From contig NZ_JAQZAL010000002.1 in NCBI RefSeq assembly GCF_028737205.1, positions 124,001 to 188,000 on the forward strand: a stretch of 64,000 nt of DNA, read 5' to 3'. Numbering within the stretch: the stretch's first letter is position 1; every line of letters starts with the position of its first letter. Of the stretch, positions 23,797 to 40,686 are shown piece by piece. The notes beneath the pieces were generated by a model. That model saw only the letters and a program-made list of their open reading frames with translations. It did no database searches and was not told where the DNA came from. Made by a program: the position numbers and the translations under genes. The stretch is from Actinomycetospora lutea. GTDB lineage: Bacteria > Actinomycetota > Actinomycetes > Mycobacteriales > Pseudonocardiaceae.

Positions 23797-23816
23797 GTCG
23801 TTAAGGTCCCGACGAC
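23797..23816 (+). promoter_or_regulatory. Copy G of the shared 20-bp element, upstream of thuA
   Basis: GTCGTTAA-GGTC-CCGACGAC. The outer arms GTCGT/ACGAC are perfectly palindromic and TAGTCGT at its left is shared with copies A and B. It lies between the divergent CrtU-like and ThuA genes, 12 bp before the ThuA start. Three positions differ from the best copies, so this is a weaker member. Confidence 0.5.
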
Positions 23817-23828
23817 GGGAGTCCCCTC

Positions 23829-24536
23829 GTGCGTGCTGTGGTGCTGTCCGGAGGCTTGACGCACGACTTCCCCGCCACCACGTCCTGCCTGACCGCGCTG
23901 CTGGCCCCGCTGGGTGTCGCGTCGGAGGTCCACGAGGGCGTCGACGGCGTCGACGAGGCCTTCCTCGCCCTGCCGGGCGCCGACCTCCTCGTCGTCAACG
24001 CGCTGCGCTGGACGATGACCGGGCCCGGCGTCCCCGACCGCTACCGCGAGCAGGCCGACGCGGAGGGCGCGAGCCCCTCGGCGGCGGCGCGCGCGGCGTT
24101 CGCCGACCACCTGGCCGGCGGCGGCGGCGTGCTCGCGGTGCACACGGCGGCCCTGTGCTTCGACGACTGGCCGGAGTGGGGTGCCGCGCTCGGTGCGCGC
24201 TGGGTCTGGGGGCGTTCCCAGCACCCGCCGCTGGGCCCGGAGATCGACGTGTCGGTGGTCGGCGACGGCGACCTCGTCGGCGGTGTGGAGGGCTTCTCGC
24301 TGGTGGACGAGGTCTACGGCGACATGGACCTCGCCGGCGACCTCGATCCCCAGCTCGCCGCGCCCCAGCCCGTCACCGACGGCCGGACCATGCCGCTGCT
24401 GTGGGCCCGCGAGCACGGCGGCGGGCGCGTGGTCTACGACGCGCTCGGGCACCACCCGCCGTCGTACGCGGTGCCCGAGCACGCGGAGATCGTCACCCGG
24501 GCGGCGCGGTGGGCCCTCGGTGGCCGAGGTGGCTGA
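23829..24536 (+). CDS. ThuA-domain protein
   Basis: 235 residues, cytoplasmic. VVLSGGLTHDFPATTSCLTALL, ADLLVVNALRW and GGGVLAVHTAALCFDDWPEWGAALGARWVWGRSQHPPLG fit the ThuA-like fold (trehalose-utilisation family, related to class I glutamine amidotransferases). ThuA proteins accompany sugar or polyol oxidation, but the precise reaction is unknown. GTG start with GGGAG upstream. Followed with a 17-bp overlap by a TIM-barrel gene and then an SDR, forming a three-gene unit. Confidence 0.85.
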   Translation: MRAVVLSGGLTHDFPATTSCLTALLAPLGVASEVHEGVDGVDEAFLALPGADLLVVNALRWTMTGPGVPDRYREQADAEGASPSAAARAAFADHLAGGGGVLAVHTAALCFDDWPEWGAALGARWVWGRSQHPPLGPEIDVSVVGDGDLVGGVEGFSLVDEVYGDMDLAGDLDPQLAAPQPVTDGRTMPLLWAREHGGGRVVYDALGHHPPSYAVPEHAEIVTRAARWALGGRGG

Positions 24537-25290
24537 TCACCCCCTGTCGCTCTCGGCCGGCTGCGTCCTCGACGTCGAGCCCGCCGAGGTCGTGGCCCTC
24601 GCGGCCGCGGGCGGCTACGACCTGGCCGGGGTCCGCCTGGCCGACCCCCGCGCCCAGCGCCCCGCGGTCGTCCGCGCCCTCGCGCAGCACCCGGTCGGCC
24701 TGCTCGACGTCGAGGTCGTCCGGCTCGGCGCCGCCCCCCTGAGCGACCACGACCGCGCCCTCGCCGACGTCGCCGCCGAGCTGGGCGCGCGGTTCCTGCT
24801 CACCGTCTCCGACGACCCCGACGAGGACGTCACTACCGCGCGCGTCGCGGAGCTGGCGGCCCTCCTGCGCGGCGCGCCCACCCGCGTCGCCCTCGAGCCG
24901 ATGCGGTTCACCGGCGTCCGCACGCGCGAGGCGGCCGAGCGGATCGCGCGCGCGGCGGGTGCCACCGTGCTCCTCGACCCGCTGCACCTGCACCGCACCG
25001 GCGACGACCTCGCCCGCCCCGCCGACCCGGCCCTCACCGGGTACGCGCAGCTGACCGACGTCGCCGCGCCGGCCACCACGCCGGACGACCTCGCGCACGA
25101 GGCCCGCCACGACCGGGTCCCGCCCGGCGAGGGCGGGCTGGACCTGCGCGGCTTCGTGGCGGGCCTGCCTCCGGCCGTCCCGCTCGCGGTCGAGGTCCAG
25201 TCCGACCGGCTGCGGGCGACCACCGCACCCCTGGAGCGCGCGCTGCTGCTGTGTCGCGCCGCCCGCACCGTCCTGGGAGGGACCCCCTGA
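24520..25290 (+). CDS. TIM-barrel protein, sugar-phosphate isomerase/epimerase-like (AP endonuclease 2 fold)
   Basis: 256 residues. Alternating strands and helices with VALEPMRFTGVRTREAAERIARAAGATVLLDPLHLHRTG (a metal-ligand Glu and Asp-x-x-His typical of xylose-isomerase-like barrels) and YAQLTDVAAP, ending PLAVEVQSDRL (Glu). These acidic/His positions match the metal site of the IolE/hydroxypyruvate-isomerase-like family. Substrate unknown. The start is either GTG 24520 or GTG 24529, both overlapping ThuA. Its stop shares one base with the following SDR start. Confidence 0.8.
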   Translation: MAEVADHPLSLSAGCVLDVEPAEVVALAAAGGYDLAGVRLADPRAQRPAVVRALAQHPVGLLDVEVVRLGAAPLSDHDRALADVAAELGARFLLTVSDDPDEDVTTARVAELAALLRGAPTRVALEPMRFTGVRTREAAERIARAAGATVLLDPLHLHRTGDDLARPADPALTGYAQLTDVAAPATTPDDLAHEARHDRVPPGEGGLDLRGFVAGLPPAVPLAVEVQSDRLRATTAPLERALLLCRAARTVLGGTP

Positions 25291-26048
25291 TGGCACGACC
25301 GATCGCCGGCATGTCCGTGCTCGTCACCGGAGGGGGCTCGGGCATCGGCGAGACCGTGGTGACGCGCCTGGCCGCCGCCGGCGCGCGGGTGACGCTGACC
25401 GGCCGCCGGGCGGAGAAGATCGCGGCGGTGGCGGAGCGGTCGGGCGCGCGGCCGGTCGCGGGCGACGTCACCGTCGACGCCGACCGTCGCGCGATGGTCG
25501 ACGCCGCCGTGGAGCACGGCGGCGGGCTCGACGCGGTCGTGCACGCGGCGGGCAACATGTACCGGGGGCCGCTCGCCGAGCTCACCGAGCAGGGCCTGCA
25601 CGACGTCTTCGCCTCCAACACGGTGGCGCCGATGCTGCTCACGGGCCTGGCGCTCCCCCACCTCGTCGCCGCGCGGGGGGCGGTCGTGTTCTTCGGGTCC
25701 GTGCACACCCAGCGCGCCTTCCCCGGCGCGGCCCCCTACGCGGCGACCAAGGGCGCGCTGGAGACGCTGACCGGGGTGCTCGCCGCCGAGCTGGGCCCGC
25801 AGGGCGTGCGGGTGAGCTGCGTGCGCCCGGGCGGCGTGCTCACCGAGATCAACCAGCGGGCGGGCCTGTTCGACGACGCCACGGCCGCCGAGCGGATGCA
25901 GTCCCTCGGCCCCGCGCACGCCCTGGGCCGGCCGGGCACCACCGACGAGGTCGCCGAGGCCGTCGAGTACCTGCTCGGCGCGGAGTGGGTCACCGGCAAC
26001 GTGCTCACCGTCGACGGCGGCCTCGGCCTGGGCGTCACCCAGGCCTGA
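25290..26048 (+). CDS. Short-chain dehydrogenase/reductase
   Basis: 252 residues. NAD(P)-binding TGGGSGIGE (about 13-21), the NAG-equivalent VVHAAGN, catalytic Ser in FFGSVHTQRA and YAATK for the catalytic Tyr and Lys, and the C-terminal GNVLTVDGGLGLG. A classical SDR of the FabG-like group. GRRAEK after strand 2 favours NADP(H). Third gene of the thuA unit, probably oxidising or reducing a sugar-like or hydroxylated intermediate (inference). Convergent with the TrmB-type regulator, 18 bp apart. Confidence 0.9.
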   Translation: MARPIAGMSVLVTGGGSGIGETVVTRLAAAGARVTLTGRRAEKIAAVAERSGARPVAGDVTVDADRRAMVDAAVEHGGGLDAVVHAAGNMYRGPLAELTEQGLHDVFASNTVAPMLLTGLALPHLVAARGAVVFFGSVHTQRAFPGAAPYAATKGALETLTGVLAAELGPQGVRVSCVRPGGVLTEINQRAGLFDDATAAERMQSLGPAHALGRPGTTDEVAEAVEYLLGAEWVTGNVLTVDGGLGLGVTQA

Positions 26049-26066
26049 CGCCCACCGACGGGAGGC

Positions 26067-26942
26067 CTACCTACGGCGGCGGCGGGCAGGCGCGCCGCGC
26101 CCGCCGAGCTGGAGCAGCGCCGCCGGGATGCCGTGGTCGGCGCGCAGGCGCTGGATCGCGGGGTCGTTGGCCCAGAACGTCTCGAAGTCCTCGGGCGCGA
26201 GCTTCTCGGCGATGAGGTGCATGGCGATGTCGTGGCGCACGTACTCGACGGCCACGAGCACGACCGCGGGGTCGTCGGTGAACACGCCCCAGGCGTCCTC
26301 ACCCACCACGCCGCCGATGACGGCCTGCTCGCGGTCGGCGGCGACCACCAGCAGCCGGCAGCCCAGGTTCTCCAGCGCCACCTCCGGGCTCGAGAAGCGG
26401 TGCACGGTCGTGGTGCCGACCGGCTCGGCGTCCTCGCCGAAGCTCACCACGGAGACGTCGACGCCCTCGTTCTCCGCCCGCCGGGCCGCGGCCTTGAGCG
26501 GCGCGAGCTCGGCGGGCCAGCCGGAGAGGAACAGGTCGTTGCGGGCCGCGCCGACGACGTCCTCGGCGCGCGCGAGCAGGGAGTCGCGGTCGGTGAGGTT
26601 GTGGACGATGCGCACCTGCGGCGGCGCCGCGAGCCGGGGCAGCTCGGTGCCGAGCGCGTCCATCGACGCGTCGAACTCCCGGCGCATCCGCTCGAGCAGC
26701 GACGCGGGCGGCAGCGACAGGTAGCCGACGCTGCTCTCGCCGGTGTGCACCTCGTACGCGGCGCCGCGGCCGACGAGCTTGCCGAGCGTCTCGTAGACGG
26801 TGCTACGCGGCACGCCCGACCGCTTGGCGACCTCGTAGCCGTTCAGCGGGGTCCCGGCGGCCACCAGGGCGACGTAGGCCTTGGCCTCGTAGCCCGACAT
26901 GCCGAGACGCCCGAGCTCGTCGATGACGCTCTGCTGCGACAT
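26067..26942 (-). CDS. TrmB-family transcriptional regulator
   Basis: 291 residues. The N-terminal winged helix reads LGMSGYEAKAYVALVAAGTPLNGYEVAKRSGVPRSTVYETLGKLVGRGAAYE, the classic TrmB HTH. A coiled-coil linker (SLLERMRREFDASMDAL) leads to a phospholipase-D-like/sugar-binding effector half with FLSGWPAELAPLKAAARRAENEGVDVSVVSFG. It is encoded 28 bp after an SDR gene in the same direction. As the only regulator inside the 22-45 kb island it is the best candidate to bind the repeated 20-bp element, but no direct evidence links them. Confidence 0.88.
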   Translation of the reverse strand: MSQQSVIDELGRLGMSGYEAKAYVALVAAGTPLNGYEVAKRSGVPRSTVYETLGKLVGRGAAYEVHTGESSVGYLSLPPASLLERMRREFDASMDALGTELPRLAAPPQVRIVHNLTDRDSLLARAEDVVGAARNDLFLSGWPAELAPLKAAARRAENEGVDVSVVSFGEDAEPVGTTTVHRFSSPEVALENLGCRLLVVAADREQAVIGGVVGEDAWGVFTDDPAVVLVAVEYVRHDIAMHLIAEKLAPEDFETFWANDPAIQRLRADHGIPAALLQLGGRGAPARRRRR

Positions 26943-26970: not shown

Positions 26971-27744
26971 TCACTCGGCAGGCGCGTCGCTGCGCGCCCG
27001 CGGCATCGCGTTGAGGGCGCCGCGGGTGATGCCGCCGTCGACCGCGAGGGTCTGGCCGGTGATGTAGGCCGCCTTCTCCGAGCCGAGGAAGAGCACGGTC
27101 TCGGCGACGTCCTGCGCGGTGCCGAGGCGCCCCAGCGGCACGCGGCCCGAGCGCAGGCGCCGGACCTCGGGGTCGGCGTAGATCGCGTCCGACATCCCGG
27201 CGTCGATGAGGCCCGGCGCGACGGCGTTGGCGCGGATCCCGTGGGCGCCCCACTCCAGGGCCATGTGCTCGGTGAGCATGACGACGCCGGCCTTCGACGA
27301 CGTGTACGCGCCGGCCCCGGGGGCGGCGGCCAGCCCGTTGATCGAGGAGATGTTGACGATCGCCCCGCCGGCCGACTCCGCGATCATCCGCTCGGCGGCC
27401 ACCCGCGCGACGAGGAACGTGCCGGTGAGGTTGACGTCGAGCGCGGCGCGCCAGTCGGCCGCCGCCAGCTCGAGCAGCGGGCCGAAGCGCACGATGCCGG
27501 CGTTGTTGACCACGAGCGCCGGGGCGGCGGGGAGCTCGCCCATCGCCGCGCGCACCGAGCTCTCGTCGGTGACGTCCACGGCCAGCGGCACGCACGCCTC
27601 GCCGATCTCCGCCGCGACGGCGCGGACGGCCTCGCCGTCGAGGTCCCACGCCGCGACGCGGTAGCCCTCCTTCGCCGCGTGTCGGGCCAGGACGGCCCCG
27701 ATCCCGCGGCCGGCCCCGGTGATCACTGCCCACGTCGTCGTCAC
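26971..27744 (-). CDS. Short-chain dehydrogenase/reductase
   Basis: 257 residues, with TGAGRGIGA (about 10-18), NNAGIV, the catalytic ISSINGLAAAPGAGAYTSSKAG (Ser, Tyr, Lys) and GQTLAVDGGITRG. AWDLDGEAV after strand 2 has Asp, which favours NAD(H). Similar to glucose-1-dehydrogenase and 3-oxoacyl-ACP reductase-like enzymes; substrate unknown. GTG start lies only 7 nt after a TAGCGT box, so its mRNA is probably leaderless. Shares a transcript with the TrmB gene downstream. Confidence 0.91.
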   Translation of the reverse strand: MTTTWAVITGAGRGIGAVLARHAAKEGYRVAAWDLDGEAVRAVAAEIGEACVPLAVDVTDESSVRAAMGELPAAPALVVNNAGIVRFGPLLELAAADWRAALDVNLTGTFLVARVAAERMIAESAGGAIVNISSINGLAAAPGAGAYTSSKAGVVMLTEHMALEWGAHGIRANAVAPGLIDAGMSDAIYADPEVRRLRSGRVPLGRLGTAQDVAETVLFLGSEKAAYITGQTLAVDGGITRGALNAMPRARSDAPAE

Positions 27745-27757
27745 GGTAACGACGCTA
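27737..27757 (-). promoter_or_regulatory. Leaderless promoter and weak copy F of the 20-bp element
   Basis: On the reverse strand TAGCGT (27757-27752) matches the actinobacterial -10 TANNNT and ends 7 nt before the SDR start codon at 27744. The overlapping GTCGTCAC-GGTA-ACGACGCT keeps seven of eight left-arm bases of the shared element but only part of the right arm. Confidence 0.45.
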
Positions 27758-27832: not shown

Positions 27833-27852
27833 GTCGTCAGCAGCCTGACGGC
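27833..27852 (+). promoter_or_regulatory. Copy A of the shared 20-bp element
   Basis: GTCGTCAG-CAGC-CTGACGGC, with perfect inner arms GTCAG/CTGAC. It ends 23 bp before the amidohydrolase ATG, where a repressor would cover the transcription start. The preceding TAG makes a 10-base match, TAGTCGTCAG, with copy B. Confidence 0.65.
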
Positions 27853-27875: not shown

Positions 27876-29237
27876 ATGGCCAGCATCCTGATCCACGGCG
27901 GCACGGTCGTCGACGGCACCGGCGCGCCGGCACGTCCCGGGGAGGACGTCCTGGTGCGCGACGGCCGCATCGCCGCCCTGGGCGCGGACGCCGCGGCGGG
28001 CGCCGACGAGGCCACCGAGCGCGTCGACGCGACCGGTCGCACGGTGATGCCCGGACTCATCGACGCCCACACCCACCTCACCTTCGGCGAGCCCACCGGC
28101 AACGACGAGCTCTTCAACCACCGCACCGAGGCCTACAGCTCGATGCTCTCGGCCTACAACGCGCGCAAGGTGCTGCGCGCCGGCGTCACGAGCGTCCTCG
28201 ACGCCGACTGCCTGTGGAACATCGGCTGCGAGCTCCGGGACGCCATCGAGGCCGGCATCGTCGAGGGCCCGCGGATGCGCGCCGGGGGTCAGGCGCTCAT
28301 GACCATGCTGGGCGGCACGGCCGGCCGGATGATCAAGGACGAGGGCACCACGGGGTACGCCACCGTCGTCACCGGCCGGGACGTGATGGTCAACGAGATC
28401 CGCCGGCAGATCAAGTACGGGGTCGACTGGATCAAGATCATGGTCACCGGCCTGATCCCGTCGATGAAGGGCCCCGAGGTCAAGGTCTGGAACATCGACG
28501 AGCTGCGCACCGTCTGCGACACCGCGCACGAGCTCAACACCAAGGTCGTCGCCCACTGCCGCAACTCCGACTCCACCCGTGACGCCGCCCGGGCCGGGGT
28601 CGACCTGATCTACCACGCCTCCTACCTCGACGACGAGGCGATCGAGGCCGTCGTCGAGGCGGGCGCGTCGATGTGTCCGACGTTCACGCTGCTGGGCAAC
28701 CTCGCCGACTACGGCGCGCGGATCGGCACCGCGCCCGAGCTGCTCGACGTGTTCCGCGCCGAGATCGAGGTGACGGCGAAGCAGCTCACCAAGGCGCACG
28801 CCGCCGGCGTCCGGTTCCTCACCGGCTCCGAGACCGGCTTCGCGGTCACCCCGGTCGGCGAGTGGCACGCCCGCGAGCTGGAGATGTTCGTCGACTACAT
28901 GGGCATGACGCCGATGGAGGCGATCGTCGCCGCCACCCGCAACGGCGCGTTCGCGATGCGCATGGAGGGCCCCGATGGCGGAGTCGGCACGCTCGAGACC
29001 GGCCGGATCGGCGACGTCCTGGTCGTCGACGGCGACCCGCTGCGCGACGTCACGGTGCTGCAGGACAAGGAGCGGATCGTCGAGGTGATCAAGGAGGGCC
29101 GGCGGACCGACCTGGTCACGCCGATCCCCGAGCACCGCCAGCGCGCCTCCGACCAGGTCCGCTTCCTCGCCGCGTGCCCGCTGACGCGCTCCCTCGCGCT
29201 CACCGAGGAGGACCTCGAGCGCATGTCGCATGTCTAG
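27876..29237 (+). CDS. Amidohydrolase-superfamily metal-dependent hydrolase
   Basis: 453 residues. N-terminal beta-sandwich [33 protein letters not shown], then the metal motif [11 protein letters not shown] (HxH), KIMVTGLI with a likely bridging Lys region, VVAHCRNS and [10 protein letters not shown] for the further His ligands, and SETGFAVT containing the usual late acidic position. This is the prolidase/imidazolonepropionase-like branch. The substrate is unknown. The C-terminus is long (about 40 residues past the sandwich). Preceded by copy A of the shared element and overlapping the next hydrolase by 8 bp. Confidence 0.88.
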
Positions 29238-30234
29238 GCCGGGCGGCGGGGGCGGCGTCCTCGACGTCCACGCCCACGCCGTCCTGCGCTCGTCGGAGGG
29301 CGCGGCCGGGGCGGCCGGGCCGGAGCTCGGGACGTCCGACGACGGGCGGCCGTTCTACCGGGTCGGCGACTACGTCCTGCACGGCGTGCGCTACGAGGGC
29401 AGCCCGTTCATGGACCTCGACCTGCGCCTCGCGGCGATGGACGCGGCCGGGATCGGGCGCCAGCTCCTCTCCCCCAACCCCCTGACCTACTTCGGGGACC
29501 TGCCCGTCGACGACGCCGTCTCCTTCGCCCGCCGGCACAACGACGGCCTCGCCGCGCTCGTCGCGGAGCACCCCGACCGGCTGCTCGCGGCCGCCCAGCT
29601 GCCCGTCCAGGACGTGGCCGACAGCATCACCGAGGCCCGCCGCGCGGTGCGCGACCTCGGCATGAGCGCGATCTACCTCGACACCGACCCGGCCGGGCGC
29701 ACCCTCGACGACCCGGCGCTCGACCCGCTGTACGAGGCGGTCGTGGACCTCGACGTCCCGCTGTTCGTGCACCCCTCGCCGATCGGTCCGGACGGCCCGC
29801 CCGCCGATCCGCGGCTGCGCCGCTTCGACCTCGACCTGCAGTGCGGCTTCGCGTACGACGAGACGCTCGCGGTCGCCGCGCTCGTCTTCGGCGGCGTGCT
29901 CGAGCGCCATCCCGGCCTCGACGTGTGCCTGTCGCACGGGGGCGGCGCCGCCGCCTTCCTCGCCGGCCGGTTCGCCCGGGCGGCGCGCAAGCGGCCGTGG
30001 GCGTCCGAGGCGCTGCGTGAGCAGGGCTTCGCGCCGTGGTTCCGGCGGCTGTGGTTCGACGTCCACGTGCACGACGAGGGCTCGGTGGCCCTGCTGCGCG
30101 AGCGCGCCGACCCGGCCCACCTGGTGTTCGGCACCAACTTCGCGGGCTGGGACTCCGACGCCGACGACACCCCGACCGGCCCGTTCGCGCAGGAGCTGAC
30201 CGCCAACGCGGAGCGCCTGCTGCGGCTCAGCTAG
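29230..30234 (+). CDS. Amidohydrolase-2 / ACMSD-like metal-dependent hydrolase or decarboxylase
   Basis: 334 residues. [10 protein letters not shown] gives the first metal pair, VPLFVHPSP the third ligand, [12 protein letters not shown] the fourth and [11 protein letters not shown] the late Asp, matching the aminocarboxymuconate-semialdehyde-decarboxylase/amidohydrolase 2 family. GRQLLSPNP and [12 protein letters not shown] are also family features. Such enzymes decarboxylate or hydrolyse ring-derived acids; which applies here is unknown. ATG start overlaps the preceding hydrolase; its 3' end overlaps the convergent MFS gene by 8 bp. Confidence 0.86.
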
Positions 30235-31546
30235 GCAGCGGGCGCCGCGCCGTCTCCCGGAGCGCCAGCACGGCGGGCAGCGAGACCACGGCCAGGATCA
30301 TCACGTAGTACGCGCCGACCATCGTCGACCCGGTGGCACCGCCGAGCCAGGTCAGCAGGTACGGCGCGGAGCCGCCGAAGAGCGCGACCGACAGGTTGTA
30401 GGTGATGCCGTGGCCGCTCACCCGGACCCGGGTCGGGAAGAGCTCGACGAGGGCGGCGTTGATCACCGCGGCGTAGGCGCCGGCGAGCAGCCCGAACAGC
30501 ACCAGGCCGCAGGCGATCAGCCCGAACGTGCCCGAGGTGATGAGCAGGAAGCTCGGGTACGACAGCACGAGCAGCCCGACGAGGCTGGTCAGCAGCACGG
30601 TCCGGCGCCCGACCCGGTCGGACAGCCAGGCCCCGCCGACCTCGGCGACCAGGCAGGCCGCCAGCGCGATCACCGACGGCGCGAAGGCCTGGAGACCCTT
30701 CAGTTGCAGGCTGCGGGTCGCGAAGCTCGGGAGGTAGCCGACGATCATGTAGAACGACGACGCGTTCGCCGCGACCAGGAAGAACGCGATGGCGAGCAGG
30801 CGGCGCTGCTCGCGCCCGGCCAGCGCCGCGCGGACGGGGTTCGCGGCGCGGGTGCGCTCCTCGCGCAGCGCGAGGAAGTAGGGCGTCTCGTCGAGCTTCT
30901 GGCGGATGTAGAGCCCGATGAGCCCGAGCGGCAGCGCCACGAGCAGCGGGATCCGCCAGCCCCACGACTGCATCTGCTCGGTGGAGAGGGTCAGCAGCAT
31001 GACCCCGGGGATCAGGCTGCCGAGCAGCGTCCCGACCACCGCGCCGACCGAGATCATCCCGACGAACAGGCCCCGGCGGTTCGCCGGCGCGTGCTCGGCG
31101 ACGAACGAGACCGCCCCGGAGATCTCGCCGCCGGCCGAGACCCCCTGCACGAAGCGCAGGAGCACGAGCAGCGCCGGCGCGGCCAGCCCGATCGCCGCGT
31201 AGCCCGGCAGCAGGCCCATGAGCGCCGTCGCCGCGGACATCAGCAGCACCGTGAGCGCGAGCGTGCGCTTGCGCCCGATCCGGTCGCCCACCGCGCCCCA
31301 GACGAACCCGCCGAGCGGGCGGGCGAAGAACGCGACGGCGAACACCGCGAGCGTGGACAGCAGCGCGGTCGTCGGGGCGACCGACGGGAAGAACACCGCC
31401 GCGAGCGTCGTGGCGAGCACGGCGTAGACCGAGAACTCGTAGAACTCGACGAGCGAGCCGATGACGCCGCCGGCGAGCAGGCGCCGCAGCGCCCGGCGGG
31501 TGGCCGGGTCCTCGGCGGCGGGGAGGGCGGTCGATTCCGTGGACAT
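30227..31546 (-). CDS. MFS transporter, metabolite:H+ symporter type
   Basis: 439 residues, twelve helices. Signatures: FFARPLGGFVWGAVGDRIGRKRTL (loop 2-3), LRFVQGVSAGGEISGAVSFVAEHAPANRRGLFVG (helix 4-5, typical of the ShiA/KgtP/ProP group), and AWLSDRVGRRTVLL (loop 8-9). The family imports organic acids, shikimate or aromatic compounds with protons, so it may bring in the island's substrate. A clear TTTACA-18-TAACGT promoter with an embedded shared element precedes it. Confidence 0.9.
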   Translation of the reverse strand: MSTESTALPAAEDPATRRALRRLLAGGVIGSLVEFYEFSVYAVLATTLAAVFFPSVAPTTALLSTLAVFAVAFFARPLGGFVWGAVGDRIGRKRTLALTVLLMSAATALMGLLPGYAAIGLAAPALLVLLRFVQGVSAGGEISGAVSFVAEHAPANRRGLFVGMISVGAVVGTLLGSLIPGVMLLTLSTEQMQSWGWRIPLLVALPLGLIGLYIRQKLDETPYFLALREERTRAANPVRAALAGREQRRLLAIAFFLVAANASSFYMIVGYLPSFATRSLQLKGLQAFAPSVIALAACLVAEVGGAWLSDRVGRRTVLLTSLVGLLVLSYPSFLLITSGTFGLIACGLVLFGLLAGAYAAVINAALVELFPTRVRVSGHGITYNLSVALFGGSAPYLLTWLGGATGSTMVGAYYVMILAVVSLPAVLALRETARRPLPS

Positions 31547-31579: not shown

Positions 31580-31610
31580 GACGTTAGGGAGCTGACGACG
31601 CTCGTGTAAA
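31580..31610 (-). promoter_or_regulatory. MFS promoter overlapped by copy C of the shared element
   Basis: Reverse strand: TTTACA (31610-31605), 18-bp spacer, TAACGT (31586-31581). The element, read on the same strand as GTCGTCAG-CTCC-CTAACGTC (31599-31580), fills the spacer and covers the -10, the ideal place for repression. Confidence 0.65.
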
Positions 31611-33829: not shown

Positions 33830-33860
33830 GGTGTCCTCCATCGACCGGGCGGGTCCCTGG

Positions 33861-33888
33861 ACGGTAGTCGTCAGTCTACTGACGTCAA
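33861..33888 (-). promoter_or_regulatory. P450 promoter with copy B of the shared element in its spacer
   Basis: Reverse strand: TTGACG (33888-33883), 16-bp spacer, TACCGT (33866-33861). The element GTCGTCAG-TCTA-CTGACGTC (33867-33886, given on the plus strand) fills the spacer and has perfect GTCAG/CTGAC arms. It includes the last codons of the upstream Gfo/Idh gene, so this promoter sits inside coding sequence and can uncouple the P450 operon from the genes before it. Confidence 0.68.
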
Positions 33889-34920
33889 ACCGCCGTCCAC
33901 CGCGTCGGCGATCCGCAGGGCGGCGACGCCGTCGGCGAAGGTCGGCAGGTCCGCGGCCGGAGCGCCGTCGGCCACGTGCGCGACCAGCGTCCGGACGAGC
34001 CGGGTGAAGGGCTCGGTGGCCGTGCCCTCGGCGGCGACGAGCTCCCCGGTCTCCTCGCCGGTGCGCGCCCCGGAGAGCCGCACGGGGAAGTGGCCGGTGT
34101 GCCCGGCGGCCTCGGCGACGAGGACACCCTCGGCGCCGTGCGCGACCAGCCGCCACCCCCCGCCCCCGGGCGCGACCCAGGAGCTGTGCACCGAGCACAG
34201 GGCGCCGTCGGCCGTGCGCGCGGTCCACGCGGCCGAGTCGACGCTGTCGGCCGGCAGCGGCCCGTCCGGGCCCGGCCACGTCGGCGCGCGGCGCGCCACC
34301 AGCCCGCGGACGTCGCCGAGGTCGCCGAAGACCCACCGCACGATGTCGGCGGTGTGCAGGCCGTGCACCCGCAGCGAGCTCGCCCCGTGCGCGGCGTCGG
34401 CGCACCATCCCGACCCGCGCACGGCGGCGGGGTTCGTGAACGTCGGGTAGAACGCCTGCACCGCGACGTTGTCGACCCGGCCGATCCAGCCGTCCTGCAC
34501 CCGGCGGCGCAGCTCGGCGAGGCCCGGCCAGAACCGGGACTGCATGTCGACCGCGGCGACCCGCCCGGCGGCGTCGGCCGTCGCCGCCATCTCGAGGCCC
34601 TCCTCGGTCGACCGGGCCAGCGGGGCCTCGCACAGCACGTGCTTGCCGGCCCCCAGCGCGGCGCCGACCATCGCCGCGTGCCGGCTCGGGCGGGTCGCGA
34701 CGTCCACGAGGTCGACCCCGGGGTCGGCGCAGAGGGCCTCGAAGCCCACGTGGGCCCGCGGGACGCCGTGGGTGCGGGCGGCCTCGTCGGCGGTCTCGCG
34801 GTGCGCGGTGGCGACCGCCGCGAGCTCGACGATTCCCTCGCGCGCCAGGGCGGCGTAGACCGGCAGGTGGGTGGCGGCCGCGTAGTGCAGGCCGACGACC
34901 CCGACGCGCAGCGGCGTCAT
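33871..34920 (-). CDS. Gfo/Idh/MocA-family oxidoreductase-like protein
   Basis: 349 residues. Rossmann start RVGVVGLHYAAATHLPVY (about 5-22), then VDLVDVATRPSRHAAMVGAALGAGKHVLCEAPLARS. The family's EKP motif, whose Lys binds cofactor and substrate, is EAP here, so activity may differ from a normal NAD(P) dehydrogenase. The C-terminal alpha/beta domain contains RVHGLHTADIVRWVFGD with the catalytic-type His. The ATG overlaps the LLM gene stop by 4 bp, making it third in the operon that starts with the flavoprotein at 37448. Confidence 0.88.
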   Translation of the reverse strand: MTPLRVGVVGLHYAAATHLPVYAALAREGIVELAAVATAHRETADEAARTHGVPRAHVGFEALCADPGVDLVDVATRPSRHAAMVGAALGAGKHVLCEAPLARSTEEGLEMAATADAAGRVAAVDMQSRFWPGLAELRRRVQDGWIGRVDNVAVQAFYPTFTNPAAVRGSGWCADAAHGASSLRVHGLHTADIVRWVFGDLGDVRGLVARRAPTWPGPDGPLPADSVDSAAWTARTADGALCSVHSSWVAPGGGGWRLVAHGAEGVLVAEAAGHTGHFPVRLSGARTGEETGELVAAEGTATEPFTRLVRTLVAHVADGAPAADLPTFADGVAALRIADAVDGGLTSVD

Positions 34921-35933
34921 GCGGGGACCGCGGGTCGGTCGACCGCGGGCAGCACCTCGTTCCCGAACAGCTCCATGGCCGCCAGGACCGAACGGTGGTC
35001 CGGGCCGGTGGGGTACCGGAAGATCATCAGGAAGTCGTCGACGCCCGCCCCGTCCTGGAAGCGCCCGATCGTCTCGACGCACTCCTCGGGCGTGCCGAAC
35101 ACGAACCGGTCGCGGACGAACTCCTCGAGGGTGATCTGGTCGGCGCTCGTGACGCCCGGCAGGTCGGTGATGGCGCCGTAGTCGAAGAGCGTGCGGGCCA
35201 TCGCGAGCGCCGTGTCGCCGAAGAGCTCGAGCGCCTGCTCGCGCGAGGTGTAGGGCCAGCAGAAGCGGATGGCGGTGACGTGCGGACGCCGCCCGGCGGC
35301 CAGCGCGGCGGCGCGGTAGTCCGCGGCCATCGCCGTCATGGTGTCCAGCGACATGAGCGCGTTGGTGATCCAGCCGTCACCGAGGCGCCCGGCGCGGCGC
35401 AGCCCGCCGGGCGTCCAGGCCGCGAGGTGCAGCGGGACGCCGTCGGGCTGCAGCGGGCGGGGCAGGACGGCCTGGTCGGCGAAGTGGTGCAGCTGGTCGT
35501 CGAAGGAGAAGCGCTCCTGGGTGTGGGCGGCCCGCACGATGCGCACGGTCTCGTCGAAGCGCTGGGCCCGGTCGTCCCACGGCACCCCGGCCGCGGTGTA
35601 GTCGACGGGCATGTAGCCGGCGCCGAGCCCGAGCCACGCGCGCCCGCCGGAGAGCTGGTCGAGGATCGCGGCGTCCTGGGCGAGGACGACCGGCGCGTAG
35701 AGCGGCGCGATGGCGATCGCCGTCCCCACCCGGACGCGCTGCGTGCGGGCGGCGATGGCGAACGCGAGGTGCAGCGGCGCACCGAAGTACTCCTCGGAGT
35801 CCTTGTGCTCCGTGGTCAGCGCGGCCGAGAAACCGAGCCGGTCGGCGGCCTCGGCCTGCTCCAGGATCTCCGCGAGCGTGGTCTGCGGCTCGCCGGTCAC
35901 CTGGCCCTGCGTGAACAACACTCCGACCGACAT
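34917..35933 (-). CDS. LLM-class (luciferase-like) flavin oxidoreductase
   Basis: 338 residues, single TIM barrel of the bacterial luciferase-like family that uses reduced FMN or F420. Evidence: VGVLFTQGQ, RVRVGTAIAIAPLYAPVVLAQDAAILDQLSGGRAWLGLGAGYMPVDY and PLHLAAWTPGGLRRAGRLGDGWI, the standard LLM segments, with GTPEECVETIGRFQDGAGVDDFLMIF near the end. Cannot tell FMN monooxygenase from F420 dehydrogenase by motif. Translationally coupled to the Gfo/Idh gene. A second LLM lies at 39191, and together they suggest two oxidative steps. Confidence 0.9.
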   Translation of the reverse strand: MSVGVLFTQGQVTGEPQTTLAEILEQAEAADRLGFSAALTTEHKDSEEYFGAPLHLAFAIAARTQRVRVGTAIAIAPLYAPVVLAQDAAILDQLSGGRAWLGLGAGYMPVDYTAAGVPWDDRAQRFDETVRIVRAAHTQERFSFDDQLHHFADQAVLPRPLQPDGVPLHLAAWTPGGLRRAGRLGDGWITNALMSLDTMTAMAADYRAAALAAGRRPHVTAIRFCWPYTSREQALELFGDTALAMARTLFDYGAITDLPGVTSADQITLEEFVRDRFVFGTPEECVETIGRFQDGAGVDDFLMIFRYPTGPDHRSVLAAMELFGNEVLPAVDRPAVPA

Positions 35934-35972
35934 CGTCGTCTCCTCGAGGGTGGGGGCCGTGCTCAGCTGGGG

Positions 35973-37448
35973 TCAGGAGGTGGGGTCGGGCGCGGGCTCG
36001 GGGTCGGGGTCGAGGTGCACGAGGGCGATGCGGGTGTCGAGCATGCTCGGCAGGCCCGCGTGCAGGACCGACCCGTGGCCGCCGCCGCCCGTGACGTCCC
36101 GCGCCACGGCGCGCCCGGCGACCCGCCCGAGCGTGAAGCCGCCGCTGATGTGGATCCCGCCGAGGTCGGAGACGGGGTTGAGCCCGCCCACGCAGTCGCC
36201 GGCGGCGAACAGGCCCGGGATGGCGTCGCCGAAGACGTCGAGGACCTGCAGGTCGGTGGTGACGCGGAAGCCCCCGCAGCAGAAGTTGATGCCCTCGACC
36301 ATGGGGACCGCGGTGAACGGCGGCCGGGTGCACGTCCGGCGCCCGGGCGGCAGCACCACGCGGCCGAAGTCCGGGTCGCGGTCGGCCGACGTGCCCGCGA
36401 GGAAGTCGTTCCACCGCGCGACGGTGCCCTCGAGCGCGGCCGCCGGGACGTCGATGGCCGCGGCCAGCTCGGCGAGGCTGCCCGCGGAGACCGGCGGCTC
36501 GGGCATCTGGCTGATCAGGGTGGCCTTCTCCCGGAAGACCTCGTCGTCGACGACGTACCAGGCGCGCCGACCGGGCTGCTCGTGGAGGCGGTCGACGCGC
36601 TCCTCGTAGGGCCCGGCCTCGTCGTGGAACCGCTCGCCCCCGACGTTCACCGCGATCGCGTCCTCCACCACCGAGGAGGAGACGATGACCAGCGGCGGCA
36701 CGAACGTCATGTTCACGAGGTCACCGCCGACGGCCTGGCCGAGCAGGTGGCCGTCGCCGCGGCAGGTGTCGATGCCCAGGTAGGGCGCGCGCGACACCGC
36801 CACCGGCTGGAAGCGGCGCCGCAGCTCGGGGTTGGCCTGGTAGCCCCCGGTCGCCAGCACGGCACCGCGGCGGGCGGTGATCTCGAGGGGCGCGCCGTCG
36901 GCGAGCCGGTGGGCCCGGACCCCGGTGACGCGGCCGTCGCGCACCACCAGCCGGTCGGCCACCGTGCCGTACCGGACCGTGACGCCGGGGCGCTCCACGT
37001 CGCGCCGGAAGGCCCGGCCGAGCATCCAGCTGTCCTCCACCGCGGCCATCCGGTCGACGGTGTGCTGGCGCGGGCGCGGGATGAAGCGGCTGAAGCGCAC
37101 GCCGCGCTCGGTGAGCTGCCGGTAGGTCTCGGCGCTCTCCCGGGCGAACAGCCGCACCAGGTCCTCGTCCCACTCGACACCGAACCGGTCGTGCGCCTGC
37201 TCGACCATCGCGCGGGCGTCGGCGACGAAGGTCTCCTCGTCGTCGGTGATGCCCTGGTCGCGCTGCATCGCGGAGTCGACGAAGGCCAGGTAGCCGGTGG
37301 ACCAGACCGCGTTGCCCCCGATGTGGTCCATCGCCTCGAGCACGACGACGGACGCGCCCTCGTCGGCCGCGGCCGCGATGGCCGCCATGCCGGCGGGACC
37401 GGCGCCGAGCACGACCACGTCGGCGGCGAGCGTCTCGACCTCGGGCAC
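35973..37448 (-). CDS. FAD-binding (fumarate reductase / ketosteroid-dehydrogenase-like) oxidoreductase
   Basis: About 491 residues. FAD motif VVVLGAGPAGMAAIAAAADEG with VVVLEAMDHIGGNA, an internal AVLATGGYQANPELRRRF, and the C-terminal IPGLFAAGDCVGGLNPVSDLGGIHISGGFTLGRVAGR identify the FAD_binding_2 (FrdA/KstD/urocanate reductase) family. These reduce or introduce C=C bonds next to carbonyls. No covalent flavin motif and no heme domain. The start at 37448 (GTG with GGGAG 5 bp upstream) is preferred to GTG 37490, which would abut the probable -10. It leads the LLM and Gfo/Idh genes. Confidence 0.88.
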   Translation of the reverse strand: MPEVETLAADVVVLGAGPAGMAAIAAAADEGASVVVLEAMDHIGGNAVWSTGYLAFVDSAMQRDQGITDDEETFVADARAMVEQAHDRFGVEWDEDLVRLFARESAETYRQLTERGVRFSRFIPRPRQHTVDRMAAVEDSWMLGRAFRRDVERPGVTVRYGTVADRLVVRDGRVTGVRAHRLADGAPLEITARRGAVLATGGYQANPELRRRFQPVAVSRAPYLGIDTCRGDGHLLGQAVGGDLVNMTFVPPLVIVSSSVVEDAIAVNVGGERFHDEAGPYEERVDRLHEQPGRRAWYVVDDEVFREKATLISQMPEPPVSAGSLAELAAAIDVPAAALEGTVARWNDFLAGTSADRDPDFGRVVLPPGRRTCTRPPFTAVPMVEGINFCCGGFRVTTDLQVLDVFGDAIPGLFAAGDCVGGLNPVSDLGGIHISGGFTLGRVAGRAVARDVTGGGGHGSVLHAGLPSMLDTRIALVHLDPDPEPAPDPTS

Positions 37449-37511
37449 GGCGTCTCCCGCTAGGTTGGGTCCGGTGGTGGGGCGGGTCACAGAGTGGGGA
37501 GATCACCGAGC

Positions 37512-37531
37512 GGCGTCAAGCACCTGACGAC
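37512..37531 (-). promoter_or_regulatory. Copy D of the shared element, with a -35 box for the flavoprotein operon
   Basis: Read on the reverse strand: GTCGTCAG-GTGC-TTGACGCC. The TTGACG in its right arm (37519-37514) can be a -35, followed after 17 bp by CACTCT as a -10 for the gene starting at 37448. On the other side it lies upstream of the promoter for the P450 at 37603, so it may serve both. Confidence 0.6.
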
Positions 37532-37542: not shown

Positions 37543-37571
37543 TCGACCCGGCCGGGGCGCGTTGCTAGCGT
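37543..37571 (+). promoter_or_regulatory. Likely promoter of the P450 operon at 37603
   Basis: TCGACC (37543-37548), 17-bp spacer, TAGCGT (37566-37571). The -10 fits TANNNT and the spacing is ideal, although the -35 matches only moderately. The ribosome site AGGGAG precedes the TTG start by 7 bp. Confidence 0.5.
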
Positions 37572-37602
37572 CGTTAGTCACGCCACGCCGAGGGAGTGTG
37601 CC

Positions 37603-38811
37603 TTGCCCACGATCACGCTGGACCGCTACGCCGACGTCCGCGAGGCCTACCGCCAGCACGACCTCGAGCAGGCGCTCTACGACGCCGGCGGCGTGGTGAT
37701 GGCCGACTGCCTGCTCGTGCTGCACGGCGCCGCGCACCGCACCCGGCGCCGCGTGGAGAACCGGCTGTTCCGCCGCGGGACGTTCCGGCACTGGGAGCAC
37801 ACGTTCCTGCGCGACGTCGTCACCGACACCCTCGCCCCGTTCGTCGCCGCCGGCCGGGCCGACCTGCTCGAGCTCGGCTACCGCACGGTGATGAACCTGA
37901 CCGCGATGGTCGCCGGCGTCGACCGCTCCACCACCGCCGGCGACGACCACACGGCCGAGACCGACGCCCTCTACCGCTTCGCGAAGAAGTTCTCCGAGGG
38001 CGCCACGCTCGTGCACACCACCCGGGACCCCGACGAGGTCCGCGCCGAGGTCGCCGACGCGCTCCAGGAGTTCGACCGGATCTTCCTGACGCCCTCGATC
38101 GCCCGCCGCGAGGCCCTGCTGGCGCAGCTGGCCGCCGGGGAGATCACCGAGGACGACCTGCCCCGCGACGTCCTCACCGCGCTGCTGCGCAACACCGAGG
38201 AGCTCGGCCTCGACCGGGACATGCTGCGCCGCGAGGTCGCCTTCTACCTGCAGGCCGGCTCGCACAGCACCGCCGACGCCTTCTCCCACGCCGTCGACGA
38301 CTGGTTCGCCTGGTCCGCCCGCGACCCCGAGGCGGCCGAGGAGGCCCGCCACGACCCGGCCCTGCTGCAGGCCTGCGTGTACGAGACGCTGCGCCTGCAC
38401 CCGGCGAGCCCCGTGGCGCGGCGCCGGGCCCTCGCGCCGATCGCCCTGCGCGGCGGCACCGAGATCCCGGAGGGCGCCGAGGTCGTGCTCGACATCGCCG
38501 CCGCCAACCGCGACCCGGCGATCTTCGACCGGCCCGCGGAGTACGACCCGGCGCGCGACGTCCCCGCCGACGTGCCGCGCTGGGGCCACGCCTTCGGCGG
38601 CGGGATGCACGCCTGCATCGGCACCGAGCTCGCGGGCGGGGTGCCGGCGGCCTCGGACCGCGAGGGCGCCCAGGTCCTCGGCACCGTCACCCTCATGCTC
38701 GACGCCCTGCTCGCGGCCGGTGCGCGCCCCGACCCGGCGGCGCCGCCGGTGCGCGACCCGCACTCGGCGCGGGACCACTTCGCGTCCTACCCGGTGGTGT
38801 TCCCGCAGTGA
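37603..38811 (+). CDS. Cytochrome P450, twin of the 32630 enzyme, His in the I-helix
   Basis: 402 residues from a TTG. Heme loop FGGGMHACIG with Cys338; ExxR at Glu261-Arg264. I-helix YLQAGSHSTADAF has His221-Ser222 where Asp/Glu-Thr is usual. It shares long stretches with the P450 at 32630, for example DTLAPFVAAGR and AFYL-AG-H, so the two are paralogues from a duplication. No ferredoxin is adjacent; it could use the one at 32403. Followed with GTGA overlap by a SnoaL-like gene and then an LLM gene. The region after the Cys has the unusual insertion GGVPAASDREGAQ. Confidence 0.91.
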   Translation: MPTITLDRYADVREAYRQHDLEQALYDAGGVVMADCLLVLHGAAHRTRRRVENRLFRRGTFRHWEHTFLRDVVTDTLAPFVAAGRADLLELGYRTVMNLTAMVAGVDRSTTAGDDHTAETDALYRFAKKFSEGATLVHTTRDPDEVRAEVADALQEFDRIFLTPSIARREALLAQLAAGEITEDDLPRDVLTALLRNTEELGLDRDMLRREVAFYLQAGSHSTADAFSHAVDDWFAWSARDPEAAEEARHDPALLQACVYETLRLHPASPVARRRALAPIALRGGTEIPEGAEVVLDIAAANRDPAIFDRPAEYDPARDVPADVPRWGHAFGGGMHACIGTELAGGVPAASDREGAQVLGTVTLMLDALLAAGARPDPAAPPVRDPHSARDHFASYPVVFPQ

Positions 38812-39194
38812 CCGCCCCGCCGGTCGTCACCCGGTTCCTCGCCGCGGTCGAGGCGCGCGACCCCGACGCGGCCGGGGCCTGCTTCACCGAGGACGGGACG
38901 TGGGCGAACGTGCCGCACCCGCCGGTGGTCGGGCCCGCGGGCGTGCGGGGCATGCTCGCGCCGATCCTGGCGCGCTCGCAGTGGGTGCGCTGGGACATCG
39001 TCACCGCCGCGCACACTCCGGAGCGCTCGTGGCTCGAGCGGGTCGACCGCTTCGGCATCGACGGCACGGAGTACGCGGTCGCGTGCCACGGCGTCGTCGA
39101 GGTGGACCCGGATCGCGACCTGATCACCGACTTCCGCGACTACGTCGACCTCGGCGAGTGGCGCGCGCGGCTCGGCACCGTCCTGCAGCGGTGA
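38808..39194 (+). CDS. SnoaL/NTF2-like protein
   Basis: 128 residues with the cone-shaped NTF2-like pattern: VTRFLAAVEARDPDAAGACFTEDGTWANVPHPPVVGPAGVRGML at the start and TEYAVACHGVVEVDPDRDLITDFRDYVDLGEWRARL at the end. The acidic RDYVDLGEW segment resembles limonene-1,2-epoxide hydrolase relatives, where Asp and Arg open an epoxide; with a P450 just before it, hydrolysis or isomerisation of an oxygenated product is plausible but unproven. Overlaps both neighbours by 4 bp (GTGA), so it is tightly co-translated. Confidence 0.84.
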   Translation: MTAPPVVTRFLAAVEARDPDAAGACFTEDGTWANVPHPPVVGPAGVRGMLAPILARSQWVRWDIVTAAHTPERSWLERVDRFGIDGTEYAVACHGVVEVDPDRDLITDFRDYVDLGEWRARLGTVLQR

Positions 39195-40174
39195 CCGACG
39201 AGCTGCGGATCGGCCTCGGCCTGTGGAGCGGGCAGCACGGCGACCCCACCGACGCCGTCGCGCTCGCGCGGGCGGGCGAGGACGCCGGGTTCGACGCCTT
39301 CTGGGTCACCGAGCACCACGGCCTGCCCGACGGCTACCTGCCCTCGCCGCTCACGGTGCTCGCCGCCTGCGCGTCCGTCACGCGCCGGATCGAGCTGGCG
39401 ACGGGCGTGGTGCTGGCGCCCCTGCACCACCCGCTGCGCCTCGCCGAGGACGCCGCACTCGTCGACCGGCTCAGCGGCGGGCGGCTGCTGCTCGGCCTGG
39501 GGCTCGGGTACGCCGAGCACGAGTACCGCGCGTTCGGCGTCGACCCGGCCACCCGCGGGGCGCGCCTCGAGGCCCTGGTCGCGGCGCTGCGGGCGGCCGG
39601 GACCGGCGAGCCCTTCTCCGCGCCGGCGCTGGGGCTGCACGACGTGCGGGTCACCCCGACCCCGTCGCGCCCGATCCCGCTCTGGCTCGGCGGGTACGCC
39701 GACCGCGCCGTCGCCCGGGCCGGGCGCCTCGCCGACGGGCACCTGGTCGGGCGGGGCGAGCCCGGGATCGTCGACGCCGCCTCGCGGACCCTGGCGACCG
39801 TCCGCGACCCGGGCGACCCCGCCTTCGTCCGCGGCGTCGTCGTCACCTGCGTGCTCGACGCGCCGGGCGGCGGCGCCTCGCAGGCCCGCGCCGGATACGC
39901 CCGCGCCCAGCAGGCCTACGAGGCGATCCAGCGCGGGCGGGCGGTCTACGCGGGGCTCGCGGACCCCGTCGCGGCGACCGACGTCGACGCCCACCTCCAG
40001 GTCCGCGGCGACGTCGACGACGTCGTCGCCGGGCTGCGCGCCGTCGTGGCGTCGCTCGCGGCGTGGTCGCGGGTCCACCTCGTGGTCCGCCTGCTGTTCG
40101 CCGAACCGGACCTGGACACCGCCCGGACCCGCGTCGCGACCTTCGGCGAGCGGGTCCTCCCCCACCTGCGCTGA
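39191..40174 (+). CDS. LLM-class flavin oxidoreductase
   Basis: 327 residues. LRIGLGLWSGQHGDPTDAVALARAGEDAGFDAFWVTEHHG begins the barrel (EHH is a typical LLM active-site stretch), then RIELATGVVLAPLHHPLRLAEDAALVDRLSGGRLLLGLGLGY and PIPLWLGGYADRAVARAGRLADGHL. Cofactor FMNH2 or F420H2 unresolved. It is the third gene after the P450 at 37603 and is the counterpart of the LLM at 34917 on the other side of the divergent promoter. Confidence 0.9.
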   Translation: MTDELRIGLGLWSGQHGDPTDAVALARAGEDAGFDAFWVTEHHGLPDGYLPSPLTVLAACASVTRRIELATGVVLAPLHHPLRLAEDAALVDRLSGGRLLLGLGLGYAEHEYRAFGVDPATRGARLEALVAALRAAGTGEPFSAPALGLHDVRVTPTPSRPIPLWLGGYADRAVARAGRLADGHLVGRGEPGIVDAASRTLATVRDPGDPAFVRGVVVTCVLDAPGGGASQARAGYARAQQAYEAIQRGRAVYAGLADPVAATDVDAHLQVRGDVDDVVAGLRAVVASLAAWSRVHLVVRLLFAEPDLDTARTRVATFGERVLPHLR

Positions 40175-40183
40175 GGAGAGCCC

Positions 40184-40644
40184 GTGGAGAGCCTGGACCC
40201 CGACGACCGCGTCGCGATCACCGACGTGCTCGCGCTGTACTGCGAGCGGATCGACGAGTACGACATGGACGCCGTCGTGGACCTGTTCACCGCCGACGCC
40301 GTCATGGACTTCGGTCCGGGGCGGGGCGGGGTGCTGCGCGGCCGGGAGGCGCTGCGGGCCCGGTTCGCGGGCGGTCAGGCGGGCTTCCGGCGGACCCACC
40401 ACCACCTCGGCCAGGTGCGGCTGACCGCGGCCGCCGATGGGCGGGCGCACGGGTGTCGTCCTGCTCGGCGGGCCACGAGCGCCACGACGGCACGCAGTGG
40501 CGGATCGGCCTGCGCTACGTCGACGTGCTGGTCCGCGAGGAGACGTGGCGGATCGCCGAGCGCCGCATCGAGGCCGCGCTGGTCGAGGACGGCCCGCGCG
40601 AGGGGTGGACGTGGATCGCCCGCCGCGAGCCGGAGCACGGCTGA
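40184..40644 (+). pseudogene. SnoaL/NTF2-like gene with a frameshift near 40440-40452
   Basis: The first 85 residues (ESLDPDDRVAITDVLALYCERIDEYDMDAVVDLFTADAVMDFG, FRRTHHHLGQVRLTAAADGRA) are a good SnoaL-like N-terminus, with the Tyr/Asp and His-His positions of the family. The matching second half, RVSSCSAGHERHDGTQWRIGLRYVDVLVREETWRIAERRIEAAL, is in the -1 frame and ends at 40644. One base appears missing between 40439 and 40452. If the base is truly absent, translation in the first frame meets no stop and runs into the downstream SDR. A sequencing error is the alternative. Confidence 0.75.
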
Positions 40645-40647
40645 GCC

Positions 40648-40686
40648 TTGCCGCGCCGGGACGTGCGGCGTTAGCGTCCTCACGAC
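40648..40686 (+). promoter_or_regulatory. Promoter of the SDR-P450-SnoaL operon with copy E of the shared element
   Basis: TTGCCG (40648-40653), 18-bp spacer, TAGCGT (40672-40677). The element at 40667-40686, GGCGTTAG-CGTC-CTCACGAC, covers the -10; its reverse complement GTCGTGAG-GACG-CTAACGCC keeps the arm layout of the other copies with one change in the left arm. Confidence 0.58.

Follow-up and report, generated by a model that had tools for sequence, protein, structure and literature searches.

Here we analyzed a 64,000-nucleotide stretch of the Actinomycetospora lutea genome (contig NZ_JAQZAL010000002.1, positions 124,001 to 188,000; hereafter the window), in which a 20-bp palindromic element with the consensus GTCGTYAG-N4-CTRACGNC recurs at the promoters of a catabolic gene island of ~23.8–44.9 kb. 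That this element is an operator is near certain. Most probably it serves a repressor of the TrmB family, a group known chiefly from archaea, that is encoded in the island itself and released by a pathway metabolite, although its binding, its sign of control and its inducer are what we infer. The sequence-only reading of this DNA had proposed a dedicated repressor regulon joining the ThuA, amidohydrolase, transporter, P450 and flavoprotein operons. The conserved, intergenic and start-facing sites described below strongly support the regulon, whereas its repressive character is read from the position of the sites only.

A genome-wide pattern scan returned three exact copies of the element in the 6.53-Mb draft genome, corresponding to sites B, C and D of the island (Table 1); with exact copies confined to the island, the test for a random genome-wide density proposed with the sequence-only reading left the dedicated regulon standing. 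All six sites that had been named there were present at their coordinates, and compared with GTCGTYAGNNNNCTRACGNC on the better strand B, C and D showed no mismatch, E and F one and A two. The statement that A and B share TAGTCGTCAG proved wrong, as A reads TAGTCGTTAA and TAGTCGTCAG is common to B and D, and the additional weak site placed at 27737–27756 does exist but is better set at 27734–27753 (site w). Allowing up to one mismatch, eight places were found genome-wide, five of them within the 17-kb island, and at two mismatches 43 + 38 strand-matches were obtained compared with 16 + 18 for the reversed pattern. Within the window, the 22 strand-matches at up to three mismatches exceeded all 100 dinucleotide shuffles (mean 11.9, largest 21); this loose count is mostly background, and the signal sits in the class of zero to one mismatch. 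Also in line with the earlier reading, which had not seen the element at the flanking housekeeping promoters, the two best off-island matches of the window are both coding: one at 55940–55959 inside an iron-containing alcohol dehydrogenase gene, the other at 46117–46136 inside the gene at 44925–46691. A close relative of the former, GTCGTCAGCAGGTTGACGGC, recurs as a coding copy in many genomes of the genus and would mislead a scan based on the pattern only.

For scoring we used a symmetrised matrix whose training set of 20 Actinomycetospora sites contained all six of the window, rendering the window scores circular and the matrix-found sites no independent proof of symmetry. The top score among 30 simulated windows (20.2) is barely exceeded by sites A (20.8) and F (21.0), and as both sites belonged to the training set their case rests on conservation. 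We therefore relied on counts of unfitted patterns, on alignments and on other genera.

Within Actinomycetospora, trmB was present in seven of 18 genomes, all of which carry the island and, with few exceptions, a site at each corresponding promoter, so that the second proposed test, conservation in orthologous loci, likewise spoke for the regulon. In the aligned promoters the arms were fixed and the central N4 free, as illustrated by CAGC, CCCC and CATC between the same arms at B. The promoters of ThuA (A), P450a (D) and P450b, the latter sharing its site with the divergent gene, reached best scores of at least 19.4 in 7/7 genomes, and the site A position is a perfect palindrome, GTCGTCAGCTTCCTGACGAC, in G013, G005 and G008. 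Counterparts of C scored at least 26.3 at the MFS promoter in six of the seven, with none in G008, and those of E at least 21.0 in all three genomes having the flavoprotein gene at that place. The same threshold was reached by the F counterpart in the three genomes with a separate SDR4 promoter, the site being absent in the four where SDR4 follows SnoaL1. Site B scored 23.1–25.9 in G000, G016 and G012 and was weaker, 12.0–15.6, in the other four; its counterparts in related Actinomycetospora loci lie 114–125 bp from the divergent SDR2-trmB start. Internal or downstream gene starts taken as controls (SDR3, Gfo, LLM1, LLM2, P450c, aldehyde dehydrogenase, SDR1 and TrmB) never scored above 3.4.

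Two further sites are weaker. Site w combines a good arm, TAGCGTCGTTA, next to a −10-like box with a second arm that fits poorly, and its TAGCGTCGTTACC block is invariant in 7/7 genomes, making it a candidate autoregulatory site for the SDR2-trmB operon. Site G retains CGTCGTTA in 7/7 genomes. As judged by eye, w and G each place one arm beside TAGCGT.

Over all 18 genomes of the genus, 19 of the 21 exact places fell inside the seven trmB islands; the exact copies in the trmB-less genomes G007 and G015 lie where two convergent genes overlap at their ends. At up to one mismatch, the seven genomes with trmB held 79 strand-matches (reversed control 1). A closer comparison of near-sites found 12 of 15 to be coding (three intergenic) in genomes without trmB compared with none of ten in those with it; this comparison took up to two loci per genome and, for trmB-carrying genomes, exact matches, and four or more of the coding near-sites are one copy recurring in orthologues.

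Outside the genus, an alignment scan with TrmB over one genome per species (84,980 species) yielded 58 loci, comprising 24 with an orthologue (at least 74% identity) and 34 with a paralogue (52–68%). These loci are related and some are near-identical, so a binomial value calculated for the sites exaggerates their significance. The unfitted pattern GTCGTYAGNNNNCTRACGAC gave 70 sites at up to two mismatches compared with none for its reversal, all of them in loci with a TrmB of at least 74% identity, and at three mismatches 46 compared with 10. By the matrix, at least one site was found in 22 of the 24 orthologue loci (none in L094 and L098), and 82 of the 88 sites were intergenic (counting those that overlap a called gene by no more than 12 bp) and six coding, although intergenic sequence makes up just 56,920 (12%) of 463,534 bases, 406,614 being coding. 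For 77 of the 82 intergenic sites, a gene start lies in facing orientation no more than 350 nt away. The 34 paralogue loci, totaling 673 kb, contained two sites scoring at least 14 and none scoring at least 18. The 60 distinct matrix-found sites from other genera yielded the consensus GWCGTYAG-N4-CTRACGWC.

Although gene order differs greatly among Actinomycetospora, Pseudonocardia, Nonomuraea, Microbispora and Microtetraspora, the sites remain at the starts of transcription units. Clustering the genes of 25 island loci showed that only TrmB, SDR2 and ThuA occur in 24 of them. The transporters served by the site are furthermore non-homologous: it lies directly before the MFS gene of the window and, in Nonomuraea, 72 nt directly before a Liv-type ABC operon, and in islands of the Pseudonocardia dioxanivorans type the ThuA site heads an operon in which ThuA is followed after 3–7 nt by another MFS gene. 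A site at L083:11008 was ruled out as an MFS gene promoter site, being positioned between convergent gene ends; that MFS gene comes after ThuA in its operon. A slightly wider pattern has its exact matches confined to the island in two of three Nonomuraea genomes. With regard to autoregulation, the trmB transcription unit is preceded by a site scoring at least 14 in 15 of 23 loci. Two Pseudonocardia islands with a TrmB of 69–71% identity (L230 in G228, L232 in G212) hold one or two sites with altered arms, GTCGCTAG- or CTAGCGAC-like in place of CTRACGAC, as though the operator had changed along with its regulator. In seven Streptosporangium loci (L101, L103, L105, L106, L111, L130 and L131), a different inverted repeat, TTTAG-N7-CTAAA or a close variant, was seen by eye to be conserved near the start of the trmB paralogue.

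P. dioxanivorans and three other Pseudonocardia possess a second TrmB, 57–58% identical to that of the window, which ends an 11-gene operon. Besides a Liv-type ABC transporter, the operon encodes paralogues of SDR2, SDR1 and the flavoprotein, and in all four it is preceded by a single near-perfect site (25.8–27.5) ~76–82 nt before the first gene. Nine non-island TrmB loci of Pseudonocardia (L183–L186, L231, L233 and L235–L237) were without a site. Far from either trmB of P. dioxanivorans (G179), an intergenic near-perfect GTCGTCAAGGTCCTAACGAC at L189:9251–9270 lies 92 nt before an Oxidored_FMN gene and is a possible trans target. Several candidates for off-island targets in the window's own genome were set aside: C25:24608, intergenic with a thiolase/ChsH2-type pair on one side and an LLM gene on the other, was not counted since the orthologous promoters are mostly without the site, C55:1224 lies 42 nt before a transposase gene, and C13:4087 and C29:196388 are both coding. 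A search of 11 genomes with paralogues gave zero to two places each, nine in total, of which three are coding, four are intergenic and face no gene start, and two lie 516 nt and 15 nt before a gene. In Spirillospora albida, a genome reached via its TrmB paralogue locus, GTCGTCATGCCTCTAACGAC at L249:1501–1520 is found 15 nt before an RPE65-type oxygenase gene, which we regard as a lead only.

The co-occurrence of sites and trmB together with the second Pseudonocardia operon supports the prediction that TrmB binds the element. The sequence-only reading had named it as the sole regulator inside the island, and our Pfam/NCBIfam scans agree, with no other DNA-binding gene among the scanned island genes. 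TrmB matches PF01978 with 55.9 bits (cut-off 25.6) over residues 12–66, and its carboxy-terminal match to PF11495 is marginal (23.4 bits, cut-off 22.2; residues 118–209 only). The AlphaFold2 model, with a mean predicted local distance difference test (pLDDT) of 82.9 and a predicted template modeling score (pTM) of 0.59, displays a winged helix-turn-helix, a helix of 26 residues (79–104) and a carboxy-terminal α/β domain. The recognition-helix residues Y50 and E51 are invariant across 21 sequences, and the closest solved sequence is that of Pyrococcus furiosus TrmB (3QPH; E 4.7e-5, residues 9–139). Among 75 TrmB rows in a phylogenetic tree, the label for presence of the motif requires four changes (shuffled mean 23.5).

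Several observations weigh against TrmB as the binder or against the element as its dedicated operator. Most paralogues, which have no good site within ~10 kb, share the recognition helix PRSTVYETLGKLV, and this helix thus does not explain why sites are missing near them. The second TrmB groups with motif-less paralogues, and the sites do not track one TrmB clade; therefore, either the code is old and the paralogues lack local targets, or the sites were acquired twice. P. endophytica (L098, L240) carries a TrmB of 74–76% identity and several island genes with no site, and L094 and L234 (TrmB 78%, few island genes) are without sites as well. In Nonomuraea, Microbispora and Microtetraspora the trmB promoter site is poor (4.9–9.9), accounting for five of the eight misses, and in the third Nonomuraea genome, G273, the sole exact match of the wider pattern falls in coding sequence outside the island. 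Of the 82 intergenic sites, five have no gene start facing them, two of these lying between convergent genes, and C25:24608 has counterparts at orthologous promoters in G000 and G016 only, not in G012 and G005 (with trmB) or G007 and G006 (without). The 11 trmB-less Actinomycetospora genomes hold 53 strand-matches at up to one mismatch (reversed control 5), and the reversed pattern is too lenient a yardstick because these genomes also exceed it. In the family, a looser pattern matches in 130 of 200 genomes, only eight of which have a TrmB of at least 75% identity. P450a (E ≤1e-100) occurs in nine of these 200 genomes, including all eight with such a TrmB; the ninth, G145 (P450a 59%), lacks a TrmB match at E 1e-90, and the 4 kb surrounding its P450a are free of sites. 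This joint occurrence supports the island as a unit, but since TrmB and P450a come and go together, presence alone cannot separate TrmB from the island. The co-occurrence of TrmB and sites is moreover partly built in because the loci were fetched by TrmB.

On account of the recognition helix, the clade distribution, P. endophytica and the presence data, our confidence that TrmB is the binder is good but well short of certainty, about three chances in four. The same helix in TrmBs with and without sites, the TrmB of P. endophytica and the spread of sites over more than one clade are what favor the alternative that a regulator encoded elsewhere, for instance of the TetR, GntR or MarR type, binds the island operator and that TrmB has another role. 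We consider this unlikely, given that trmB-less genomes of the genus have few promoter copies among the 15 near-sites compared, that the second TrmB operon has the same site, and that the nearest other regulators seen in the window, of the AraC type at 12779 and the LuxR type at 3256, are more than 10 kb away (18 of the 43 called flanking genes scanned).

With TrmB as the putative binder, a dimer held together by the long helix following the winged helix-turn-helix would insert one recognition helix per arm (GTCGTYAG and CTRACGAC), leaving the 4-bp spacer in between. As several sites lie in the −35/−10 spacer or over the −10 box, bound TrmB would keep RNA polymerase off at least six promoters, among them that of its own operon. 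As judged by eye, C spans spacer and −10 of a promoter with −35 TTTACA (31610–31605), −10 TAACGT (31586–31581) and an 18-bp spacer. Likewise, D fills a 16-bp spacer, overlapping the −35 TTGACG (33888–33883) by 4 bp and leaving the −10 TACCGT (33866–33861) outside, and it also overlaps the 3′ end of the Gfo/Idh/MocA gene (33871–34920, − strand); F covers a −10-like TAGCGT. The substrate or an early pathway intermediate may then bind the carboxy-terminal domain and release TrmB, switching on uptake, P450 and flavin oxidation, amidohydrolase and SDR steps together. From the gene content, our guess for the inducer is a cyclic or amide-bearing natural compound; among the literature matches listed for these genes, one paper deals with salicylate catabolism in fungi.

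Alternatively, TrmB might bind as an activator, or act both ways depending on position like archaeal TrmBL1 and Tgr. An excerpt of published work on archaeal relatives (PMC4158304) describes either mode according to site position, and at A, B and E the promoter boxes are too indistinct for their geometry to decide the sign of control. We hold this for slightly less likely still than a binder from elsewhere: with C, D and F in the spacer or over the −10, activation is improbable save by a MerR-like spacer distortion, and the spacers of D and C are near normal in length as measured by eye. An alternative sigma factor motif would account for the location at promoters and for the TAGCGT-like −10 boxes recurring alongside; it is very improbable for an element that forms a palindrome, perfect at the ThuA promoter in three genomes and near-perfect before the second TrmB operon, and whose position relative to the −10 varies, with D leaving it outside by eye. 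Finally, a chance GC-rich palindrome common in the genome, as might be suggested by a three-mismatch window count only twice the shuffle mean, by coding copies in many genomes and by the wide occurrence of the looser pattern in the family, is refuted by the exact copies, the intergenic and promoter-facing bias and the orthologous conservation, leaving it virtually no credence.

Genes were called by a simple codon-usage script. The island encodes a ThuA protein, a TIM barrel protein, four SDRs, two amidohydrolases, one MFS transporter, three P450s, one ferredoxin, two LLM-type proteins, one Gfo/Idh/MocA protein, one FAD_binding_2 flavoprotein, three SnoaL-like proteins and one aldehyde dehydrogenase. 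Matches of the first amidohydrolase (AmH1) among solved structures include Cc2672, prolidases and ochratoxinase. The closest NCBIfam model of SDR4 is a mycofactocin-coupled SDR (243.9 bits, below the cut-off of 300). The SnoaL-like gene at 40184–40644, between LLM2 and SDR4, seems frame-broken in this assembly, as the open reading frame 40184–41569 runs into SDR4 and relatives match no more than a part of the gene.

Table 1 Operator sites and genes of the island, with the second TrmB operon of P. dioxanivorans. Coordinates refer to the window unless a locus is given.
Feature	Coordinates	Strand	Description
Operator A	23797–23816	+	Before the ThuA-TIM barrel-SDR operon; reads GTCGTTAAGGTCCCGACGAC
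Weak operator w	27734–27753	−	Start of the SDR2-trmB operon; full-site score 11.9
Operator B	27833–27852	+	Amidohydrolase promoter; exact match
Operator C	31580–31599	−	MFS transporter promoter; exact match
Operator D	33867–33886	−	P450a promoter; exact match
Operator E	37512–37531	−	Flavoprotein-LLM-Gfo operon promoter; 1 mismatch
Weak operator G	37570–37589	+	P450b promoter diverging from E; GCTAGCGTCGTTAG; score 10.6
Operator F	40667–40686	+	SDR4-P450c operon; 1 mismatch
ThuA-like protein	23829–24536	+	PF06283
Xylose isomerase-like TIM barrel protein	24523–25290	+	PF01261
SDR1	25281–26048	+	Domain scan, scanned as 25251–26048
TrmB-family regulator	26067–26942	−	Proposed binder; PF01978, PF11495
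SDR2	26971–27744	−	First gene of the trmB operon; domain scan
AmH1	27876–29237	+	Metal-dependent amidohydrolase, prolidase/ochratoxinase group
AmH2	29230–30234	+	Amidohydro_2 family
MFS transporter	30227–31546	−	Best NCBIfam model metabolite/H+ symporter, 362.6 bits, below cut-off 443.45
P450a-ferredoxin-SDR3 operon	31620–33838	−	
Flavoprotein (FAD_binding_2)-LLM1-Gfo/Idh/MocA operon	33871–37448	−	Flavoprotein scanned as 35973–37490
P450b-SnoaL1-LLM2 operon	37603–40174	+	
SDR4-P450c-SnoaL3	40727–43359	+	
Second TrmB operon, P. dioxanivorans (G179)	L179:6400–16183		Site at L179:6304

TrmB proteins make up ~0.5% of bacterial transcription factors according to a published paper (PMC9426492), and among the literature matches listed, judged by titles and the starts of abstracts, we saw neither a mapped operator for a bacterial TrmB nor an account of this gene set. 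Co-regulation would mark the genes of an uncharacterised catabolic pathway, transporter included, and a defined operator with a conserved regulon would permit a direct test of DNA recognition and sensing by a bacterial TrmB. More tentatively, and with considerable doubt, a single actinobacterial TrmB subfamily might read one 20-bp code predating the split between island and second TrmB, in which case the two TrmBs of P. dioxanivorans would share operators and cross-regulate two catabolic operons, perhaps along with trans targets such as L189:9251. This would amount to a bacterial TrmB network for the oxidative breakdown of a natural compound rather than of sugars.

Among known systems, KstR and KstR2 likewise represent dedicated repressors acting on a palindrome at the operons of catabolic islands with P450s, SDRs and KstD-like flavoproteins. 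They are TetR-family proteins with other motifs, and, unlike in their regulons, the Pfam/NCBIfam scans gave no TetR match among the scanned island genes. A second comparison is offered by P. furiosus TrmB, which, in an excerpt of the literature (PMC4158304), binds a TACT-N3-AGTA palindrome on the core promoter, represses uptake genes and is released by maltose or trehalose. As far as that excerpt goes, P. furiosus TrmB consists of an amino-terminal winged helix-turn-helix, a coiled-coil-type helix and a carboxy-terminal effector domain, a layout that the predicted model of the window TrmB resembles, and both proteins have Tyr50, followed by Asp51 in P. furiosus and Glu51 in the window protein. 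In contrast, the window operator is 20 bp long with GC-rich arms (GTCGTYAG-N4-CTRACGAC) in a bacterial host, and its targets are P450, amidohydrolase, SDR and flavoprotein genes. The archaeal TrmB family as a whole, in the excerpted account (PMC4158304), uses palindromic motifs and contains both repressors and activators. Within it, TrmBL1/Tgr of the Thermococcales differs in its TGM motif, TATCAC-N5-GTGATA, with other spacing and a location at glycolytic and other sugar-metabolism genes; the consensus of our element, in the 60 sites from other genera, matches neither TACT-N3-AGTA nor this motif. The likeness lies in the architecture, as in both cases one TrmB-type protein and one palindrome would join many promoters of a metabolic regulon, for the archaeal system according to the same excerpt (PMC4158304).

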